IMG/VR virus record: IMGVR_UViG_3300032160_000652
Location: 1-35,132 of that record
Direction: 5' to 3' (one strand)
DNA: 35,132 nucleotides
DNA from: a virus
The position numbers and the translations under genes are program-made. The notes below the pieces were generated by a model. It saw only the letters and a program-made list of their open reading frames with translations, searched no databases and was not told where the DNA came from. Positions 21,240 to 34,422 of this stretch are shown in pieces. Every line of letters starts with the position of its first letter. Position 1 is the stretch's first letter.

Positions 21240-21416
21240 ATGACCGAATCCATAAATAGCAAAAAACTGAGCGGCATTCCGCCTGGCCGGTGCTTTCCCA
21301 CCGAAAAGGGCATGCCATGCCGACACTCATCCGTTCCAAACCTGACCGAACAAAAACGCATCCGGCGATCGAGGTTCGAGCACTGCGGAAAGTCTATGAC
21401 GCCGGCGGTGTTGTAG
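21240..21416 (+). CDS. Small protein with SGIPPGRCF motif, 58 aa
   Basis: ATG 21240 has AGAAGGGA upstream. The product begins MTESINSKKLSGIPPGRCFP, then TEKGMPCRHS. Its opening recurs as the 24-residue minus-strand ORF at 13007-13081. It overlaps the next plus-strand gene by 100 bases in another frame, so the second half may not be under selection. The conserved core suggests a real peptide of 30-40 residues. Confidence 0.5.
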   Translation: MTESINSKKLSGIPPGRCFPTEKGMPCRHSSVPNLTEQKRIRRSRFEHCGKSMTPAVL

Positions 21417-21541
21417 CCTTCGATCGTGCGGCCCGCCGCATCCTGATCGCGGTTGCCGCGCTCGTCGTGCATGTCGAAGGGCGCGACCGGCTCTCCGCGA
21501 TTATCGACACGATCGAGGCAACATCGGCGGTGCGGCGCTGA
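21317..21541 (+). CDS. Small hypothetical protein, 74 aa
   Basis: The ATG at 21317 has AAGGG eight bases upstream. The product MPTLIRSKPDRTKTHPAIEV continues with RALRKVYDAGGVVAFDRAAR and a helix (ILIAVAALVVHVEGRDRLSA). Composition and hydrophobic pattern are convincing. It overlaps the 3' end of the minus-strand HTH frame by about 150 bases. Because the HTH protein loses similarity to its paralogue exactly where this gene's 3' end begins, this gene is probably intact and the HTH gene truncated. Confidence 0.62.
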   Translation: MPTLIRSKPDRTKTHPAIEVRALRKVYDAGGVVAFDRAARRILIAVAALVVHVEGRDRLSAIIDTIEATSAVRR

Positions 21542-21792
21542 ACGATCTTTGCCGCTTCCGCACCGGATAGCTCGGGTGCGGCATTTGCCGCACTTCCGCC
21601 GTTTGATGTGCTGGCGTTACTGCCTTTCTTGGCAGCGGGTGCGGCATTTGCCGCAGTGTCGCGGCGCAGAGTCCTTTCGTCCACGCCCAACACTTTCGCG
21701 ACGCGCCGATTGCTCGCCTTTGGCTGCAATTGCTTGATGCGTTTGGCGATGCGGGCGCGCTGCTCTGGATCACTGGATGCTGGCAACGACAA
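21394..21792 (-). pseudogene. Truncated HTH gene with twin internal palindromes
   Basis: The 132-residue frame matches the 195-residue protein of 33215-33802 over RARIAKRIKQLQPKASNRRV through a short HTH (AKVLGVDERTLRRD), a Ser/Asn/Ala linker and SGAEAAKIVQRRTADVA. Both ends are lost: the N-terminal third is replaced by a short leader, and after TADVA the sequence becomes the complement of the plus-strand gene. Two identical palindromes 63 bases apart lie in the linker. It may still express the HTH. It overlaps the 95-residue gene upstream by 23 bases. Confidence 0.62.
21576..21655. repeat. Twin palindromes GTGCGGCATTTGCCGCAC in HTH gene
   Basis: The dyads are 21576-21593 (8-base arms) and 21640-21655 (7-base arms), with TT between the arms. 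Their centres are 63 bases apart. The homologous gene at 33215 has dyads at the same two places with the same spacing, but one base pair in each arm differs in a compensating way. In protein they encode A-A-N-A-A-P. Confidence 0.85.
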
Positions 21793-28221: not shown

Positions 28222-28706
28222 CAGCGACGCGTCTCATCGGCGGCGCGCTCCGCGAGGTGCTTCCCCTCGGCAAGATCACCGAGAATTTGATAGATCGCGC
28301 TGCGGAGGATTTCCTCGATCTCCGCTCGCGTCCGACCTTCGCACTCGTCGGCGTGCTTGCCCGGTATCGTCAACAGTTGTTCGCGCAACACCAAAATGGC
28401 GCGTTCGAGATGTTTTTGTACGATGTCAACGTCGCAAAGTCGGCCGGCGGCTAATTCGTTACGGAGCGCCGCGGCCTTGGTTTGCTGCACGGCAAGTTTG
28501 GCGCGCTCGGCGCTCAAGTCCGCGCCGCTGTTTCCGGTTCGGCCGGCACTTCGTTCGCGCAGATGCTTCAACACGCGTTTGCGGCACTCGTCGAGATCAA
28601 AGCCGCCATCCGCCTTCCGCTCGATAACGCCGTGAGCGAGATAATCGCCAACGGCTGCACGCGTGCAGCACAGATGCGCCGACAAAATGCTCGTTGTGAT
28701 TTTCAT
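28221..28706 (-). CDS. Terminase small subunit-like protein, Nu1 type
   Basis: This 161-residue protein has an N-terminal HTH-like stretch (LSAHLCCTRAAVGDYLAHGV, then IERKADGGFDLDECRKRVLK), the usual opening of Nu1-type small terminases. A helical core follows (ERAKLAVQQTKAAALRNELA). It would recognise phage DNA for packaging. The large subunit is missing from its neighbourhood: the next genes are small HTH and zinc-ribbon proteins. The ATG follows the TAA of the upstream ORF without a gap. It differs in sequence from the small terminase at 168-836. Confidence 0.75.
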   Translation of the reverse strand: MKITTSILSAHLCCTRAAVGDYLAHGVIERKADGGFDLDECRKRVLKHLRERSAGRTGNSGADLSAERAKLAVQQTKAAALRNELAAGRLCDVDIVQKHLERAILVLREQLLTIPGKHADECEGRTRAEIEEILRSAIYQILGDLAEGKHLAERAADETRR

Positions 28707-29004: not shown

Positions 29005-29676
29005 CTATTGCAGCATAGGGCGCGGGCGTTCCTTTTGCTCGATCAAGGACAAAAGCTGGTCGGTCAAAAACCTGACGCGTGCCGCAAAGGCATCGTCCAC
29101 GACAAGCTCTCCACAGGTCACCGAGTTAACTAGATCGGCGACCGCTTTCTCGACCTGCGGCAAGGCAAGCGATTTAACAGGCGACGGCTCGACCGCATCG
29201 ACGAGGCGAAGCGGCTCCTCTGCGATAGCGGGCCGCGCGAGGTGCTGCGGTTCCGGCTCCTCGGTGGCTTCGTAGTAGGGCACGACGACGCGAGCCCGCT
29301 CCGCCTCGACCTTGACCTTGATAAATCGCGCCTCTCCGCGCGTCATTTTAGGATGGATGGTTTTTGTTGATACCGCTTGCGCAAACGTCCCATCCGGCAG
29401 TTTCGTTAGCTCATACAGCGTGCCCCAAGCAGCCGGCAAAAGCTGCACATGTGCAGCATCGGTGAGCCTCGGGTCATCGGCGATCTTCATTAGCCGTTGG
29501 GCCGTCGATGCCGTAAACGGCAGGTCATCTTCGATCATTTTCAGGAACGCACCGCGTGCCAACGCTCGTTTGGCCGCCAGCAGCAAGCCACCTAATTTCA
29601 GAATTGCTCCGACCGTTTCCTTGTGCGCTGTTTTGATGCGCGCAGCCCATTGCGCGCGTGTCTTCGGCTTCGGCAT
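29005..29676 (-). CDS. DUF3102-like phage protein with internal palindrome
   Basis: GGAGGG lies six bases before the ATG. The 223-residue product opens RAQWAARIKTAHKETVGAIL with the family run KLGGLLLAAKRAL, then LPFTASTAQRLMKIADDPRL and HVQLLPAAWGTLYELTKLPD. These match the DUF3102-type proteins common in phages, thought to be DNA-associated. The C-terminal half is variable. A perfect 16-base palindrome overlaps the AAHVQ codons. A chimeric paralogue with a different palindrome at the same place lies at 32683-33204. Confidence 0.76.
   Translation of the reverse strand: MPKPKTRAQWAARIKTAHKETVGAILKLGGLLLAAKRALARGAFLKMIEDDLPFTASTAQRLMKIADDPRLTDAAHVQLLPAAWGTLYELTKLPDGTFAQAVSTKTIHPKMTRGEARFIKVKVEAERARVVVPYYEATEEPEPQHLARPAIAEEPLRLVDAVEPSPVKSLALPQVEKAVADLVNSVTCGELVVDDAFAARVRFLTDQLLSLIEQKERPRPMLQ
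29442..29457. repeat. Perfect palindrome GCTGCACATGTGCAGC inside DUF3102-like gene
   Basis: Sixteen bases with no spacer, within the codons for A-A-H-V-Q, twelve bases before the conserved P-A-A-W. The paralogue at 32683 has a 20-base palindrome of different sequence at the matching place. Confidence 0.9.
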
Positions 29677-30003
29677 GCGAGACCCTCCATAAGCGTTCGG
29701 ACGCGCAAAATGGCGCGTTCGGTCGCTGGCTAAAACGATGTGGAATGTGGATCGAGGAGGGGCCGAGATGCCGACGCCTAAGTGCGACGGGCGCTCGTGT
29801 CGCCGATCTTAGCCCGCTCGCTCGATCCGGGGCCTTGCTTTGCCATGCCTAGTGTGGATCGAGGCTAGCTCGATCCGACGCTGATGGAAGTCCAACGGCC
29901 GCGCGGTGTCAAGCACCATCGAAGATGAGATCGACGAGAGCCCGGAGAATTACCGCACTGCGTTTTTGCTGCGCGCCGAGCAGGCGAAGCGCCCTTGGCG
30001 CAC
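29677..30003. other. Intergenic stretch with dyad, upstream of DUF3102-like operon
   Basis: This 327-base stretch holds no supported gene. It contains the dyad GGATCGAG-gctag-CTCGATCC (29856-29876) and the word GTGGATCGAGG twice (about 29747-29757 and 29854-29864). These may be operator sites for the minus-strand operon that starts at 29676. I see no clear promoter boxes. A weak plus-strand frame (29658-29852) looks non-coding. Confidence 0.45.
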
Positions 30004-30636
30004 TTAGCCAAATCCGACATTCTCTGAGTTGACCCTTCCGGGACGCAGCCGCACCGTTATAACCAAACGCACGTCGTTAGGGTTTGGCGGGTCGCTGGTC
30101 GGCTGCAATAGCGTGTCGGTTTCGACTGACGCCTTGGTGATCAGCGAGTCATCCTCAAGAAGACAAAAGAACGGGTCTTCGTTAGATTCCGGTGTCGTGT
30201 ACGGCCCCAACTGACCAGCATTTCTAGGTATGCAGAGAGCGTCGAAAATCGTTTTTAGTCGATTATCCACATCGCCGATCCTGTTGATGAGGCCGCCGGG
30301 TTCGCCCTGCCGCAAAAACAGAATCTCGATGCTGCAAAGCAATTCCAGATTGCGCGTTGCGAGTGGCACAAAGCGATAGCCGAACATCGAAAACTTTTGA
30401 GATAGTTGCGCTATCGAATGATCAAAGCCGGGAGTGCCAAACATTCTGCTCACGGGAGCTTCTTCCTTTGGCGCATTCGGGTGCGAGAGAAATGGGGAAT
30501 TTTCCCATAGCCGTTTAAGTTGCGGGTGAAATGCCTTGCGAATTTGCTGCTTATGCGCAGCGCGGGAGCGTTTTACCACCGCGGTTCTTTTGGTCTCCGC
30601 CAAAAGCTGTCCATGCCAAGTTAGCCGAAATTCCAC
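30004..30636 (-). CDS. RusA-like protein (putative Holliday junction resolvase)
   Basis: I begin at GTG 30636, where protein-like sequence starts (VEFRLTWHGQLLAETKR); the frame further upstream is a shadow of the previous gene. The 210-residue product contains IGDVDNRLKTIFDALCIP, close to the D-x-DN-x-x-K-x-x-x-DaL signature of RusA-type endonucleases, and LLEDDSLITKASVETDTLL, like the second acidic strand of that fold. RusA enzymes cut four-way junctions using these aspartates. The protein is longer than RusA (about 120 aa), so another nuclease or a binding-only relative is possible. It overlaps the preceding gene by 16 bases. Confidence 0.6.
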   Translation of the reverse strand: MEFRLTWHGQLLAETKRTAVVKRSRAAHKQQIRKAFHPQLKRLWENSPFLSHPNAPKEEAPVSRMFGTPGFDHSIAQLSQKFSMFGYRFVPLATRNLELLCSIEILFLRQGEPGGLINRIGDVDNRLKTIFDALCIPRNAGQLGPYTTPESNEDPFFCLLEDDSLITKASVETDTLLQPTSDPPNPNDVRLVITVRLRPGRVNSENVGFG

Positions 30637-30905
30637 CGCAACTTTCTCCCAATCGAGTTTTCCACGCGCTCCTCGAAAGCCTCGTCGCGCTCGGCGTCGG
30701 GCAACGTACCTATGCGCTGCGCGCGAGATGCGGCGTCTTTGTCGATTCCCCATGCGGCAAGTTGCGCCCTAAAAGATGTCGCATCTTGCGACATCTTTTT
30801 CCCGCGGCCCGGCCCGGCCTTACGCTCGATCTTTGCCAGCGCCTGCCCGAGCTTCCAGCGCGCGAGCAATGCGATCCTGATTAACCGAAGCCTTTCCGAC
30901 CGCAA
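30621..30905 (-). CDS. Small phage protein with internal palindrome, 94 aa
   Basis: The product contains LLARWKLGQALAKIERKAGP, then GRGKKMSQDATSF and WGIDKDAASRAQRIGTLPDA. The last run resembles the segment INIDIEAAKRAQRIGALPAP of the chimeric gene at 32683, so they share a module of the ParB/DUF3102-type phage family. A 29-base inverted repeat lies in the codons for KKMSQDATSF. The start (ATG 30905) may be wrong, since the first ten residues have no counterpart. It overlaps the RusA-like gene. Confidence 0.6.
   Translation of the reverse strand: MRSERLRLIRIALLARWKLGQALAKIERKAGPGRGKKMSQDATSFRAQLAAWGIDKDAASRAQRIGTLPDAERDEAFEERVENSIGRKLRWNFG
30771..30799. repeat. 29-base inverted repeat in coding sequence
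   Basis: Arms AAAAGATGTCGCA (30771-30783) and TGCGACATCTTTT (30787-30799) are perfect over 13 bases with a three-base spacer. A plus-strand transcript would form a stem followed by U residues, like an intrinsic terminator; in the gene's own direction the same stem lies in the coding region. It belongs to the set of in-gene palindromes in this area. Confidence 0.9.
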
Positions 30906-30921
30906 GCGGCGCGGACACCAA

Positions 30922-31239
30922 TCATCCCTTCCGCGACCACGGATCGGGCTGCGGATAAAAAGTCGCCGGGCCGCTGCCCGAGCGCGTGGATGACACTACG
31001 CCTGAGCCACCGACCGTTCCGTTGACGGTCATCTGCGACCGGGAGTCGATGATCGAGCTAATCTTAATCGTGCCCTCCTCCGGCAACTCACCCTGTGCCG
31101 AGGCGTTGCCGCATTCCGGCGCCAACTGATGCGCGGAGCAGAACGATCCGTGTTGTAGGTTGAGCACGGCGGCAACGGCCGCGGCGATCACTACGGCAGC
31201 AGCAGCGCCGCCGTCGCGGGGGAATTTGAAATAACTCAT
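30922..31239 (-). CDS. Exported or membrane-anchored hypothetical protein, 105 aa
   Basis: GAAGGAA precedes the ATG at 31239. After MSYFKFPRDGG comes a hydrophobic Ala/Val-rich segment (AAAAVVIAAAVAAVLNLQHG), a signal anchor. The mature part has two cysteines (GSFCSAHQLAPEC) and a Ser/Gly/Thr-rich end (VNGTVGGSGVVSSTRSGSG). It is probably periplasmic and anchored. No family is recognised. Confidence 0.66.
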   Translation of the reverse strand: MSYFKFPRDGGAAAAVVIAAAVAAVLNLQHGSFCSAHQLAPECGNASAQGELPEEGTIKISSIIDSRSQMTVNGTVGGSGVVSSTRSGSGPATFYPQPDPWSRKG

Positions 31240-31251
31240 AGCTGTATTCCT

Positions 31252-31419
31252 TCACCGAATCGTCTGTGACGAGTGTTTGGCGACGTTTTCGGGAAAGCAA
31301 GGTGGATCGTCCGCTCGGGTGTGGATAACGCCGAGCACCTCGGCGATCAGCGTCCGATCGCCGGGCTGGATCGAGACCGGGCGCGGATCAAGCCGCGGCT
31401 TCGTCAAATGCGTCGTCAA
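31252..31419 (-). CDS. Small ORF with duplicated SIQPGDRTLIAEVLG segment, 55 aa
   Basis: The frame has no ATG; TTG at 31419 (or 31407) is the best start. The product reads TTHLTKPRLDPRPVSIQPGD, then RTLIAEVLGVIHTRADDPPC. The segment SIQPGDRTLIAEVLG is also present at the C-terminus of the frameshifted gene just upstream, in a matching frame, from a 46-base direct repeat. That both are read in frame suggests real coding. The stop is 13 bases before the start of the exported protein. Confidence 0.5.
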   Translation of the reverse strand: MTTHLTKPRLDPRPVSIQPGDRTLIAEVLGVIHTRADDPPCFPENVAKHSSQTIR

Positions 31420-31487
31420 CGTCGCATTTGCGCTGCGCGATGCCGAGCACCTCGGCGATCAGCGTCTTGTCGCCGGGCTGGATCGAG
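31330..31487. repeat. 46-base direct repeat pair
   Basis: Positions 31330-31375 and 31442-31487 match at 43 of 46 bases. Both encode SIQPGD-R/K-TLIAEVLG on the minus strand in their own frames. This is a short tandem-type duplication with divergence. Confidence 0.85.
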
Positions 31488-31967
31488 CAACCGGCCTCGA
31501 TGCGCTGGAACATCACCGCGCGCAGCCGGGCGTATATGACGCCGTAGCTCGGCAACCGCATGCCGGACTTTCGCGCTTCCCGGTAGGCCGAATTCAGGAA
31601 AGAGAGGCGCCCTTCCGCCTTGGCGTGAGCGAGCGCAGCGTCGACCTTGGCGATTGCCGCGGGTCACGCGCGCCAATAACGCCTCATGCGAAGTGATCGG
31701 CACGCCGATCTCGGCTGCGGCTGCGGCGATCGTGCCGCCAGGCTCGGAAACCCCTGCACTTAATGCAGCCCTTTTTGTTGCATTGAGGTGCCGGGCGAGA
31801 TCACGCGCGTCGTCTGGCGTCGTCCACGCGATTTCAAACGCGCCGGCGAGCCGGGCGCAATCGCGGGTGTGATGCGCACGCCCGTCACTGCCGATGTAGA
31901 TTGCACAAACACTGTCGTTGTAGGCGTGCAAGTAACTCCGGACGGCACCGCCGGGAGCTTCGATCAT
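31388..31967 (-). pseudogene. Hypothetical phage gene interrupted by a one-base frameshift
   Basis: ATG 31967 overlaps the stop of the zinc-ribbon gene upstream (ATGA). The first frame reads MIEAPGGAVRSYLHAYNDSV to LARVTRG, then loses sense. From about 31660 a second frame continues smoothly: AIAKVDAALAHAKAEGRLSF, LNSAYREARKSGMRLPSYGV, to a stop at 31388 after DDAFDEAAA. Removing one G in the run at 31658-31663 joins the two as VTR-AIAKV. The rebuilt protein of about 192 residues looks intact, so this is a recent mutation or a sequencing error. No family is named. Confidence 0.68.
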
Positions 31968-32167
31968 CCGTTGGCGGCCTTGCGCTGGCGCGAGGATGCC
32001 GATCGCCGGCGCTGCGCATAGAAGCGCGGCGTGCGGCGGATCATGCGCAGCGGTGTCGGTGCAACCAGCACGGACGGCTTGCGACATGCGGTGCATGTCA
32101 ACGTCGCCCCGAAAGGCGGCTCGGCGAAGCTCGCGCGATGGCGGCAGTGCGGGCAAACGATCATCAT
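31964..32167 (-). CDS. Zinc-ribbon protein, 67 aa
   Basis: The product opens MMIVCPHCRHRASFAEPPFG and continues ATLTCTACRKPSVLV, with CxxC pairs 17 residues apart, followed by a basic tail rich in Arg and Ser. This is a small zinc-ribbon fold like those of transcription-associated phage proteins. Its stop overlaps the next start (ATGA), and it lies 11 bases after another zinc-ribbon-like gene, so the two are probably co-expressed. Confidence 0.75.
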   Translation of the reverse strand: MMIVCPHCRHRASFAEPPFGATLTCTACRKPSVLVAPTPLRMIRRTPRFYAQRRRSASSRQRKAANG

Positions 32168-32178
32168 GCCCGCGGGTT

Positions 32179-32376
32179 TTAGCAAACTATCGGCCCAGAG
32201 GAAAAGCCGCGTTGCGCACGGCCGCCGCGCGCCCGGCGCAGCGACCACATGCCGTGGATCAAGTTGACGCGGTAGAACGGCCGCCGTGCATCGCATCGCA
32301 GGCAAGCAATGACGGTGCCATCCGGCGGGATGCAGTCGAGCGCGGTCTCGCATCCGCATTTGCAGACGATGAGCAC
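32179..32376 (-). CDS. Zinc-ribbon-like protein, 65 aa, GTG start
   Basis: GTG 32376 has AAGGAG seven bases upstream, which decides the start. The product (VLIVCKCGCETALDCIPPDG, then TVIACLRCDARRPF) has a C-x-C-x-C cluster and a later CxxC, enough ligands for one zinc. The tail is Arg/Gly-rich. It lies at the head of a small minus-strand operon that includes the next zinc ribbon and the frameshifted gene. Confidence 0.68.
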   Translation of the reverse strand: MLIVCKCGCETALDCIPPDGTVIACLRCDARRPFYRVNLIHGMWSLRRARGGRAQRGFSSGPIVC

Positions 32377-32421
32377 TGGTGCACTCCTTCTCACGGCGTC
32401 GGGCCGGGCACAATAACCCGG

Positions 32422-32670
32422 CTGCGCATCCTCAAAAAGCGCGAGCACATCCGCAAGATCATCGAGCTACGCGCCGATCTCGAAAAGGACGATCGCAACG
32501 AATTTGACATGCTTGAGGAGAAGCTCGGCGACTTCGGCTTGACCGAGCTTGGCAAGGCGGCACTGGCGAAAGTCGCCAAGACCGCCAAGGCCAGCCCGGA
32601 GATACCGGACAAGGCGCCGGCGATCGATAGCCTCAAGAAGCCCGGTAACGGCGCGCCTGCTCAAGCGTAA
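32422..32670 (+). pseudogene. 5'-truncated phage gene with shared C-terminal module
   Basis: Protein-like sequence begins near 32422 without a standard start codon: LRILKKREHIRKIIELRADL, then EKDDRNEFDMLEEKLGDFGL. It ends in ELGKAALAKVAKTAKASPEI with a Lys/Pro/Ala tail, nearly identical to the end of the next gene. The upstream part of the open frame is antisense to the zinc-ribbon genes. The gene therefore appears to have lost its 5' end in a recombination event. A CTG start cannot be excluded. Confidence 0.55.
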
Positions 32671-33203
32671 AGGGCGCAGCCGATGGCAAAGGGCACGGCT
32701 CTCGCGCCCGCCGGCGGCAGAAGTGTAGCCGCGTGGGCGAAACTTATCACCGCTCAATGGCGCGAGACCGTTGAGGGAATTCTCAACGTCGGCCGGCTGC
32801 TCCTCGAAGCATGCGCCGAGATCAAAGCGCGCGGCGGCGACATCGGCGAGCTTCTCGGCCGCGAGCCGCATGTGCAGCGGTTGCCGTTCGGGATACCTCA
32901 CCGCCTATCGGCTCATGGCGATCGTTGGCGATCGGCGGATTGTGTCCCATGGGACACAAATGCCCGCGTCGTGGCGCACGATGTTCCTAATTTCAAGGCG
33001 TTTGTGGCATCCATAAATATCGACATCGAAGCGGCGAAGCGCGCGCAACGTATCGGCGCGCTGCCGGCGCCTGAACTCGGCAAGGCGGCGCTGGCGAAAG
33101 TCGCCAAGACCGCCAAGGCCAGCCCGGAGATACCGGACAAAGCGCCGGCGATCGATTCGCTCGACAAGGCCAAGTCCGGTAACGGCGCGCCTGCTCAGGG
33201 TTG
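32546..33203. repeat. Direct repeat of a C-terminal coding module
   Basis: The copies lie at 32546-32669 and 33075-33203. They are nearly identical over the codons for LGKAALAKVAKTAKASPEIP and differ by a small insertion near the end (DSLKKPGNG versus DSLDKAKSGNG). Each copy closes one gene and is followed closely by the next ATG. Confidence 0.88.
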
Positions 33204-33204
33204 A
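32683..33204 (+). CDS. Chimeric DUF3102-like protein with compensated frameshift
   Basis: The N-terminal part (AAWAKLITAQWRETVEGILN, then VGRLLLEACAEIKARGG) matches the gene at 29005. After RLPF the paralogue-like sequence continues in the +1 frame (GYLTAYRLMAIVGDRRIV, then MPASWRTMF). The annotated frame becomes meaningful again at NFKAFVASINIDIEAAKRAQ, which resembles the 94-residue protein of 30621. Thus about 30 middle residues are read out of frame, but the 173-codon frame stays open. A perfect 20-base palindrome lies in that middle part. It may be an inactive chimera or a new protein. Confidence 0.6.
   Translation: MAKGTALAPAGGRSVAAWAKLITAQWRETVEGILNVGRLLLEACAEIKARGGDIGELLGREPHVQRLPFGIPHRLSAHGDRWRSADCVPWDTNARVVAHDVPNFKAFVASINIDIEAAKRAQRIGALPAPELGKAALAKVAKTAKASPEIPDKAPAIDSLDKAKSGNGAPAQG
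32940..32959. repeat. Perfect 20-base palindrome in chimeric DUF3102-like gene
   Basis: TTGTGTCCCATGGGACACAA is perfectly symmetrical with no spacer. In the paralogue frame its centre lies 13 bases before the codons for P-A-S-W; the unrelated palindrome of the gene at 29005 lies 12 bases before P-A-A-W. Confidence 0.92.
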
Positions 33205-33214
33205 GGGCGCCGTC

Positions 33215-33802
33215 ATGGGTAACCGTAAGAGTAAGGCACCGCTGCCCGCGGTGCCTGCCGCCGCCATCGAAGCCTATGGCGCGCTCAAGGAAGGCGTGCA
33301 CGTCGCCGGGTACACGCTAGAGAGGGCGTTAGACAAGCTCTATGCGCTCTTGAAAGGCGATCAATGGAAGGGCGTCGGCGGCGGCTTCGCCGACGTTAAT
33401 GCTTTCATCGACTCCATCAAGCTCGACAACTTTCGCATGGTTGCCGAGCAGCGCGCCCGCATCGCCAAGCGCATCAAACAGCTACAGCCAAAGGCGAGCA
33501 ATCGGCGCGTCGCGAAACTGTTGGGCGTGGACGAAAAGACTTTACGCAACGATGGTGCGGAAAAATCCGCACCCGCTGCCAATAAAAGCAATAACGACAG
33601 CGCATCGAACGGCGCGGATGCGGAAAAATCCGCACCCGAGATTTCCGGTGCGGAAGCGGCAAAGATCGTTCAGCGCCGCACCGCCGATGTTGCCAAGACT
33701 CAAGAGCGCGCAAGCCGTCACCATGCCGCTGTTGTCGTCAGCACCAAAATGACCGCTACGGCGAGCAAGATCAGAAAACGAATCACCGTCCACCTCCGTT
33801 GA
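33215..33802 (+). CDS. HTH phage protein with twin internal palindromes
   Basis: The 195-residue product has a helical N-terminal part (ALKEGVHVAGYTLERALDKL and GGGFADVNAFIDSIKLDNFR), then RARIAKRIKQLQPKASNRRV with the HTH AKLLGVDEKTLRND. A linker encoding GAEKSAP and DAEKSAP follows, 21 codons apart, and then SGAEAAKIVQRRTADVAK. The two repeated words come from identical palindromes. The C-terminus is basic. It belongs to ParB-like/HTH phage proteins. The truncated relative at 21394 has a similar layout with altered palindromes. It follows the chimeric gene by ten bases. Confidence 0.7.
   Translation: MGNRKSKAPLPAVPAAAIEAYGALKEGVHVAGYTLERALDKLYALLKGDQWKGVGGGFADVNAFIDSIKLDNFRMVAEQRARIAKRIKQLQPKASNRRVAKLLGVDEKTLRNDGAEKSAPAANKSNNDSASNGADAEKSAPEISGAEAAKIVQRRTADVAKTQERASRHHAAVVVSTKMTATASKIRKRITVHLR
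33554..33634. repeat. Twin palindromes GTGCGGAAAAATCCGCAC in HTH gene
   Basis: The dyads are 33554-33573 (8-base arms GGTGCGGA/TCCGCACC) and 33619-33634 (6-base arms), both with AAAA at the centre. Their centres are 63 bases apart, as in the relative at 21576-21655. A further half-site GGTGCGGA follows at about 33647. Confidence 0.88.
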
Positions 33803-33886
33803 AAAATCGGAGGCCATATCAATCAGCATAGAAGTCGGGCCGCCAGTGAGCCGGGGGTCTACGGTACGACGCGGGACTACGCGGTA

Positions 33887-34099
33887 ATGGGAAAAGTCGG
33901 CCGTGTGAGACCGTGCACGGCCTTATCTTGGCTTTCGCCAAGAAGATCCGCCGAGGCCGATTATGTCGTGTGGCGGGATGGCGTCGTTACCCGCGGCGGC
34001 GACCGGAAATCAAACCCGCGGCGCCGCGGGTTTGATCTTCCCAAAGGCGATCCCGGCCAAGATGTCGCCGACCGCTGGCGACTTCGGCGTGATGCTTGA
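33887..34099 (+). pseudogene. Remnant of a ParB-like/HTH phage gene (GGDRKS motif)
   Basis: The frame includes AEADYVVWRDGVVTRGGDRK, then SNPRRRGFDLPKGDPGQDVA and DRWRLRRDA. The GGDRKS word and the following stretch resemble the linker before the HTH in ParB-like phage proteins. There is no convincing start or HTH, and the frame closes at 34099, so I read this as a fragment. A 28-base perfect palindrome lies within it. Plausible reading continues in other frames downstream (GKNLPPAGGCEGPKSG), which implies frameshifts. Confidence 0.4.
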
Positions 34100-34383
34100 A
34101 GGAAAGAACCTCCCGCCGGCGGGAGGTTGTGAAGGCCCCAAGTCCGGGGATAGCACAACAGCGCCTTTCCTCTGACGCGGGGGACAACCCCTCTATCCCT
34201 CTAACCGGCGTCACTGCGGGGCCCCTAAAGGGGCCCGCCCCCAAGCCTGCCACGGCCTATCGCGTCGGCAATACCGAGCGCGACGTGAAGCTCGGCCAGC
34301 GCGCCTCTCACCCAACGCGTCCCCTTGAGACAAGTGTGGGGACAGCAATAAGAGAGTCTGCTGTCCCCACACTTGTCTCAAGG
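33899..34383. repeat. Cluster of six palindromes
   Basis: The arms are at 33899-33905/33916-33922 (GGCCGTG), 33926-33932/33937-33943 (TCTTGGC), 34009-34022/34023-34036 (ATCAAACCCGCGGC, no spacer), 34107-34117/34118-34128 (AACCTCCCGCC, no spacer), 34219-34226/34229-34236 (GGGCCCCT) and 34323-34347/34359-34383 (25-base arms, 11-base spacer). All arms are perfect. Their sequences are unrelated to one another. The stretch 33803-34440 has no intact gene that I can support apart from weak frames. Confidence 0.88.
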
Positions 34384-34422
34384 CTCAAAGCAGCGCCCGG
34401 AGCGGCACGCAAGAACGGTTAA
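34096..34422 (+). CDS. Weak ORF spanning the palindrome cluster
   Basis: A frame opened by TTG at 34096 runs 108 codons to TAA at 34422. The last 60 residues (ATAYRVGNTERDVKLGQRAS, then HPTRPLETSVGT and SAVPTLVSRLKAAPGAARKN) look more protein-like than the first half. The large inverted repeat at 34323-34383 encodes ETSVGT and AVPTLVS on its two arms. It is likely part of a broken gene. Confidence 0.28.
   Translation: MKERTSRRREVVKAPSPGIAQQRLSSDAGDNPSIPLTGVTAGPLKGPAPKPATAYRVGNTERDVKLGQRASHPTRPLETSVGTAIRESAVPTLVSRLKAAPGAARKNG

Follow-up and report, generated by a model that had tools for sequence, protein, structure and literature searches.

Among viral genes of the DUF3102 type, one of which lies at 29005-29676 in the window, i.e. 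the whole 35,132-nt stretch of IMG/VR virus record IMGVR_UViG_3300032160_000652 analysed here, we found a family whose members probably encode both a ParB/KorB-like DNA-binding domain and a 26-bp palindrome that this domain would bind, with autoregulation from the middle of the gene as the likeliest function. Binding of the in-gene dyad by the DUF3102-type protein itself is very likely, judging from the covariation between residues of the protein and bases of the dyad. The window contains genes for a tail tape measure protein, a head protease, and a terminase. The initial annotation had reported perfect dyads within the reading frames of four genes or gene remnants (29005, 30621, 32683, and 33215) and of a fifth at 21394, and all of them were recovered in the window sequence. 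The dyads at 29442-29457 and 32940-32959 are indeed perfect, whereas those at 30771, 33554, and 21576 have short unpaired centres. The genes had been regarded as a single family, but they represent at least three, i.e. the DUF3102 type (29005 and 32683, family 1), a helix-turn-helix (HTH) type (33215 and 21394, family 2), and the 30621 type, and several unrelated DNA-binding front ends share the trait. The place of the dyad is kept within the pairs 29005/32683 and 33215/21394.

The gene at 29005-29676 (minus strand) encodes 223 amino acids without a methyltransferase domain. It matches the family-1 profile with an E value of 4.5e-42 (hmmsearch) and Pfam DUF3102 (PF11300) with an E value of 5e-4 and 20.8 bits, which is under the gathering cut-off of 24.4. 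Its perfect 16-base dyad, GCTGCACATGTGCAGC (29442-29457), is the core of a 26-bp frame at 29437-29462 and occupies the codons that hold the dyad in the relatives. The predicted recognition helix STAQRLM is encoded at 29488-29508 (minus strand) and includes S57, Q60, and R61 at positions -23, -20, and -19; the codon for G85, the residue after the tryptophan (position +5), is at 29422-29424 (minus strand). The second member, at 32683-33204 (plus strand), is a frameshifted remnant that hmmsearch recognises in two frames (6e-6 and 5e-4), and its conserved motif in another frame reads YLTAYRLM...SHGTQMPASWRTMFL. It carries a perfect 20-base dyad, TTGTGTCCCATGGGACACAA, at the family-1 position (32940-32959). 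In both, the CATG centre of the dyad stands just ahead of LPxxW or MPxxW. Taken one by one, the dyads of the window have only a modest improbability (the level of the gene 29005 dyad is reached by 2 of 200 shuffles); the case for them rests on the relatives. Elsewhere in the window, GCTGCACGCGTGCAGC at 28654-28669 in the terminase small subunit gene has both 7-bp arms in common with the gene 29005 dyad; this likeness is not strong, with 4 of 100 shuffles equalling its match count, and may be due to chance.

Relatives were collected by scanning viral contigs, many of them fragments, for the pattern LPxxWxTLYEL. The scan yielded 45 loci, 42 of which were kept as DUF3102-type. Addition of the window gene and of a gene from a Methylocapsa metagenome-assembled genome (L012), and removal of one duplicate, gave a test set of 43 genes. 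A Pfam scan of 40 relatives found matches to DUF3102 in 23 at E ≤ 0.001, to the methyltransferase domain MT-A70 in 13, and to N6_N4_Mtase in five. For 72 bases around the matching codons, we scored the best dyad as arm length minus half the loop and compared it with synonymous-codon shuffles. The mean best score was 8.7, compared with 3.7 for the shuffles and 3.4 for other windows of the same genes; the initial annotation had proposed this control with codon-shuffled homologues, and the excess was found. A score of at least 7 was obtained for 34 of the 43 genes, at the codons preceding LPxxWxTLYEL, and in 18 genes the dyad score was unmatched in 200 shuffles. Several genes without a long perfect dyad carry near-dyads, e.g. 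L048 is one base off L021, which has a perfect 26-mer. The common 26-bp frame begins with CAAAT and a free base, continues with five variable bases and CA, and is completed by the mirror image; a few dyads (L025, L031, and L041) are in another register. The dyad sequence varies from gene to gene, while its placement is constant. Mycobacterium phage DeadP gp51 (L067:3965-4762), a DUF3102 gene outside the set of 43, has a perfect 24-bp dyad, AAATCGTGGCAATTGCCACGATTT, at the equivalent place. It is located directly downstream of gp49 and gp50, both annotated as transcriptional repressors. Another perfect 24-bp dyad, TGGTCGCTTAGCGCTAAGCGACCA, was observed at L029:1270-1293 in a distant DUF3102-like open reading frame (ORF; profile E value 8e-6) on the opposite strand. 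Scanning viral and genome collections with single proteins retrieved almost nothing, and genome searches by order and class gave few relatives, suggesting that the trait is rare or resides in unsampled prophages.

To relate protein to site, the mutual information between each protein column and each half-site position was calculated for the 37 genes whose dyads pair at 9 or more of the 13 positions. The 840 column-base pairs have a mean z of 0.7 with a standard deviation of 1.6, and the strongest of all is +5 with base 11 (z 12.6). When the dyad-encoded columns are excluded, the highest values are found for -23 with bases 8 and 9 (z 9.2 and 7.9), -20 with base 7 (z 8.2), -19 with bases 9 and 10 (z 6.8 and 6.6), and -20 with base 6 (z 5.0), and no further pair is as high. 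The underlying tables read as follows: at +5, glycine goes with A (18/18) and arginine with C (10/10); at -20, glutamine with C (16/16) and arginine with G (8/9); at -19, methionine with A (9/9) and arginine with C (16/19); and at -23, arginine with GA (14/15). When bases were predicted from relatives with less than 60% flank identity, 26-29 of 33-34 were right per position. The codons for -23, -20, and -19 lie outside the dyad, and the three residues share a side of the predicted recognition helix (H51-62 in the AlphaFold2 (AF2) model); +5 is located where the following helix begins. Gene 29005 conforms to all four rules (S:TG, Q:C, R:C, and +5 G:A, base 11 being A as the code predicts). The remnant fits R(-19):C10 and R(+5):C11, and its Y(-20):T7 recurs in L036.

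The covariation could in principle be internal to the protein, by coevolution of loop and helix or by templated mutation, without the DNA being read. The centre of the dyad does dictate codons (CATGG encodes HG, CATGT encodes HV), and base 11 is thereby linked to residue -3. However, the coupling of base 11 to +5 (z 12.6) exceeds that to the partly self-encoded residue -3 (z 10.6), dyads are in excess over synonymous shuffles, and symmetry persists while nearly every base changes. In L025, moreover, the dyad is one base out of register, is translated in another frame, and encodes VTMVT; the gene nevertheless keeps R(-20):G, M(-19):A, and R(+5):C, i.e. all three rules testable in it. That the code is kept with other encoded residues argues that the DNA is read, and makes purely internal covariation very unlikely. 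The idea of the initial annotation that each protein reads its own dyad thus gains strong support for the DUF3102 type from the residue-base covariation, which extends to residues that the dyad does not encode. An RNA hairpin acting in attenuation, stability, or recoding would also profit from perfect symmetry, which would form a hairpin in the mRNA too. Yet many dyads are loopless, with a CATG centre, G-U is present at just 15 of 67 unpaired positions, and covariation with residues of the recognition helix is not expected from RNA pairing; on these three grounds we rejected this explanation, which we consider highly improbable. An in-frame insertion of mobile palindromic elements or of recombination signals is less probable still. 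Rickettsia palindromic elements are repeated mobile palindromes inside reading frames, and a fixed place in frame and mosaic cassettes would suit such an origin. Rickettsia elements and REP-like repeats, however, have many copies per genome, while each family-1 dyad is unique: when up to 60 kb of each of 25 contigs was scanned, the own dyad was single-copy, and the next best match had 14-18 of 26 positions, no better than for foreign dyads. A search of 32 records for CAAAT-N16-ATTTG found one occurrence in each of seven, always the in-gene dyad, and the CAAAT arms are all that the dyads have in common. With no dispersed copies in the 25 contigs, identical codons occupied in every gene, and coupling to recognition residues, this explanation was rejected. 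The suggestion of the initial annotation that recombination signals had spread with the cassettes is not supported as such.

Comparison of close relatives suggests that DUF3102 genes are self-contained, swappable specificity cassettes. L020, L040, and L016 have 93-97% protein identity in the flanks, yet distinct helices, distinct dyads, and mostly distinct +5 residues, and the nucleotide identity of L020 and L040, about 0.9 in the flanks, drops to 0.69 over a stretch of 33 codons. In the pair L046/L049, helix residues and dyad switch together despite near-identical flanks. As about 33 codons hold both the recognition residues and the site, the two are passed on, and vary, as a unit.

The AF2 model of the L030 domain has a pLDDT (predicted local distance difference test) of 89. 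The eight best PDB matches in a structural comparison with VIA-align included ParB-parS, Spo0J, KorB-operator, Noc, and SopB, a coherent group but with weak Z values of 4.0-5.2; a sequence search of solved structures gave no match, and ParB_N is absent from the Pfam families matched by the 40 DUF3102 genes. Like ParB, Noc, and KorB with their parS, NBS, or operator palindromes, DUF3102 proteins very probably have a palindromic site, and their HTH domain has these proteins among its best, though weak, matches; they differ from them by the lack of the ParB_N CTPase domain, by a hypervariable site inside the codons for DNA binding, and by the absence of a detected ParA nearby in phages. In ParB and Noc, Gly201 faces A6 and Arg201 reads C6 (PMC7383237), and the G201R exchange switches A to C, as at +5 of DUF3102. 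From this shared rule, position 201 would appear to be homologous to +5. In Azospirillum, Roseomonas, and Leptospira, plasmid-borne DUF3102 genes mostly lie directly after ParA genes, in one case after an AAA ATPase gene, and DUF3102 is probably the ParB partner there. Pairs of ParA or AAA ATPase and DUF3102 genes were observed in L006, L007, L069, L070, and L071. In the plasmid copies that follow ParA, the corresponding codons are free of a dyad.

These data are best explained by a palindrome (CAAAT, n, five variable bases, and CA, then the mirror) that would serve as the codons between the recognition helix and the next helix, so that each phage could keep a private, working pair of protein and site. 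A dimer bound to this single mid-gene site may block or modulate transcription of its own gene and of downstream early and replication genes, a mechanism to which we assign about even chances. Where a methyltransferase is fused, it would be brought to the in-gene site. The neighbours of family-1 genes are early and replication genes, i.e. for a repressor-like regulator, HNH, a methyltransferase, replication initiation, a helicase, and Sak4. With one site per genome, and that inside the gene, autoregulation by mid-gene binding is favoured, although it takes only about half of our confidence. It is equally balanced whether the gene is a self-specifying cassette, with recognition residues and operator diversifying as a unit within the same 100 bp, so that regulatory or maintenance systems would be private to each phage and blind to one another. 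Several observations weigh against our interpretation. Operators are more usually found in promoters than within genes, and some genes (L023 and L034) have degraded dyads. The flank columns +32 and +40 likewise gain over baseline with base 9. The flank-based tree is poorly resolved and has two independent residue changes on supported branches, all in the expected direction and too few for a test; the full tree has 8-13 residue changes each. Foldseek gave no significant match for the L030 domain model, and Z values near 5 are also reached by unrelated helical folds.

The most serious competitor, which we regard as possible though doubtful, is that the dyad is not an operator but a cis maintenance site bound by its own protein, i.e. 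a parS-like centromere or a lambda-O-like origin. In lambda, the N-terminal half of O binds the iterons of ori, which are located within the O gene itself (PMC4488673), so that a site inside its own gene has a precedent. The location of DUF3102 after ParA genes on plasmids, the proximity of family-1 genes to replication initiation genes in L020 and L049, and the iteron-like two to three site copies of family 2 also fit, and the diversification of close relatives is compatible with incompatibility. In contrast, none of 30 scanned neighbouring phage proteins is ParA, the DUF3102 genes that follow ParA on plasmids lack the in-gene dyad, and family 1 has only one site: lambda ori comprises four iterons and an A-T rich arm, as compared with a single 26-bp dyad in the HTH region, and no helicase-loader partner was seen for family 1. 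Alternatively, a fused adenine methyltransferase might direct methylation to the single self site, where it would serve as a mark or a timer. Besides the MT-A70 and N6_N4_Mtase fusions counted above, family-2 relatives have MT-A70 as well; however, roughly every second DUF3102 gene, that of the window among them, carries a dyad without a methyltransferase domain, and we judge a methylation mark unlikely. Self-regulating methyltransferases of the M.SsoII kind, in which an N-terminal HTH fused to the methyltransferase binds a promoter palindrome, resemble the fusions in architecture and in the use of a palindrome, and differ in that their site is in the promoter and not in coding sequence.

No earlier description of the in-gene dyads was found in the literature searched. 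Papers mentioning DUF3102 were, by title or abstract, not about its function, and nothing was found on in-gene palindromes in such proteins or on a family-wide hypervariable, HTH-linked form. Orphan phage fusions of a ParB fold with a methyltransferase were surveyed in 2025 (PMC12704722); the survey covers ParB_N proteins and not DUF3102, leaves palindromes and inverted repeats unmentioned, and is, in the passages found, silent on binding sites of the fusions. These fusions resemble the genes described here in being orphan, ParA-less, and fused to N6_N4_Mtase, the methyltransferase type also present in L060 (see below). Neither for them nor for DUF3102 proteins did we find targets in the literature. 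If the gene indeed holds its own site, targets would be predictable from sequence alone, the residue-base code would be directly testable, and many orthogonal DNA-binding pairs would become usable as tools. The family shows coding sequence that stays palindromic while protein and site both evolve.

Self-site dyads may have arisen in several DNA-binding front ends (DUF3102, the HTH type, and ParB_N plus HTH) with a code readable from sequence, a generalisation as likely to be wrong as right. The genes 33215 and 21394 seem to form another family built on the same principle, with two or three copies of a dyad downstream of the HTH. The first, at 33215-33802 (plus strand), encodes 195 amino acids with a weak HTH match and without MT-A70, while its full-length relatives in L002, L092, and L094 combine HTH and MT-A70. 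Its first dyad copy, GGTGCGGAAAAATCCGCACC (33554-33573), has arms of 8 and a 4-base centre, and the second, with one mismatch, lies at 33617-33636, i.e. 63 bp or 6.0 helical turns away; two matches arise in 0 of 100 window shuffles. The gene or remnant at 21394-21792 (minus strand, 132 amino acids) is 58% identical to 33215 and has a dyad, GTGCGGCAAATGCCGCAC in minus-strand reading (21576-21593, arms of 8, 2-base centre), and a second copy, TGCGGCAAATGCCGCA, at about 21640-21655. In the family as a whole (33215, 21394, L002, L073, L075, L084, L092, and L094), two or three dyads follow the HTH; the copies are concordant within most genes and unlike between genes. Codon shuffling gave a clear excess for five of the eight genes (reached by at most 3 of 200 shuffles), an intermediate value for 33215 (9/200), and no excess for L075 and L092. 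The AF2 model for family 2 (mean pLDDT 70.7) is of low quality except in the HTH, and tblastn against phages and plasmids found no family-2 relatives.

The third type is represented by the unannotated gene at 30621-30905 (minus strand; ..KIERKAGPGRGKK-MSQDATSF-RAQLAAWGI..SRAQRIGTLP), with a 29-bp dyad at 30771-30799 (arms of 13, 3-base centre). It shares RAQRIG with 32683 (phmmer, E value 1.2e-4), had no Pfam or PHROG match, and had no relatives beyond the window among the sequences searched. Evidence for self-reading is thinner for this type and for 33215/21394 than for DUF3102. A ParB_N + HTH + N6_N4_Mtase protein (L060:6701-8020) has an in-gene dyad, AGCTGTGGCAATTTGCCACAGCT, just ahead of the HTH; in its methyltransferase part, this protein is similar to the DUF3102 fusions of L021, L036, and L042. 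A ParB_N + HTH protein at L080:3692-4441 (and in L083) has a dyad, CTTTGTTGCATGATGCAACAAAG, within C-terminal codons.

The window contains further dyads. The remnant ORF region 33887-34160, possibly a fourth front-end type, has a perfect 28-bp dyad at 34009-34036 in ORF 33887-34099 (..RGGDRKSNPRRRGFDLPKG..) and a perfect 22-bp dyad at 34107-34128. Outside any DUF3102 gene, a 26-bp near-dyad with the family-1 outer arms and 11 of 13 pairs, CAAATGCGTCGTCAACGTCGCATTTG, is present at 31405-31430. This site (CAAATGCG..CGCATTTG) is in frame near the 3′ end of a minus-strand HTH-like ORF (IAEVLGIAQRKCDVDDAFDEAAA*). Lastly, an inverted repeat with arms of ~24 bp (CTTGAGACAAGTGTGGGGACAGCA) and an 11-base spacer, read by eye, lies at 34324-34382 near the end of ORF 34096-34422.

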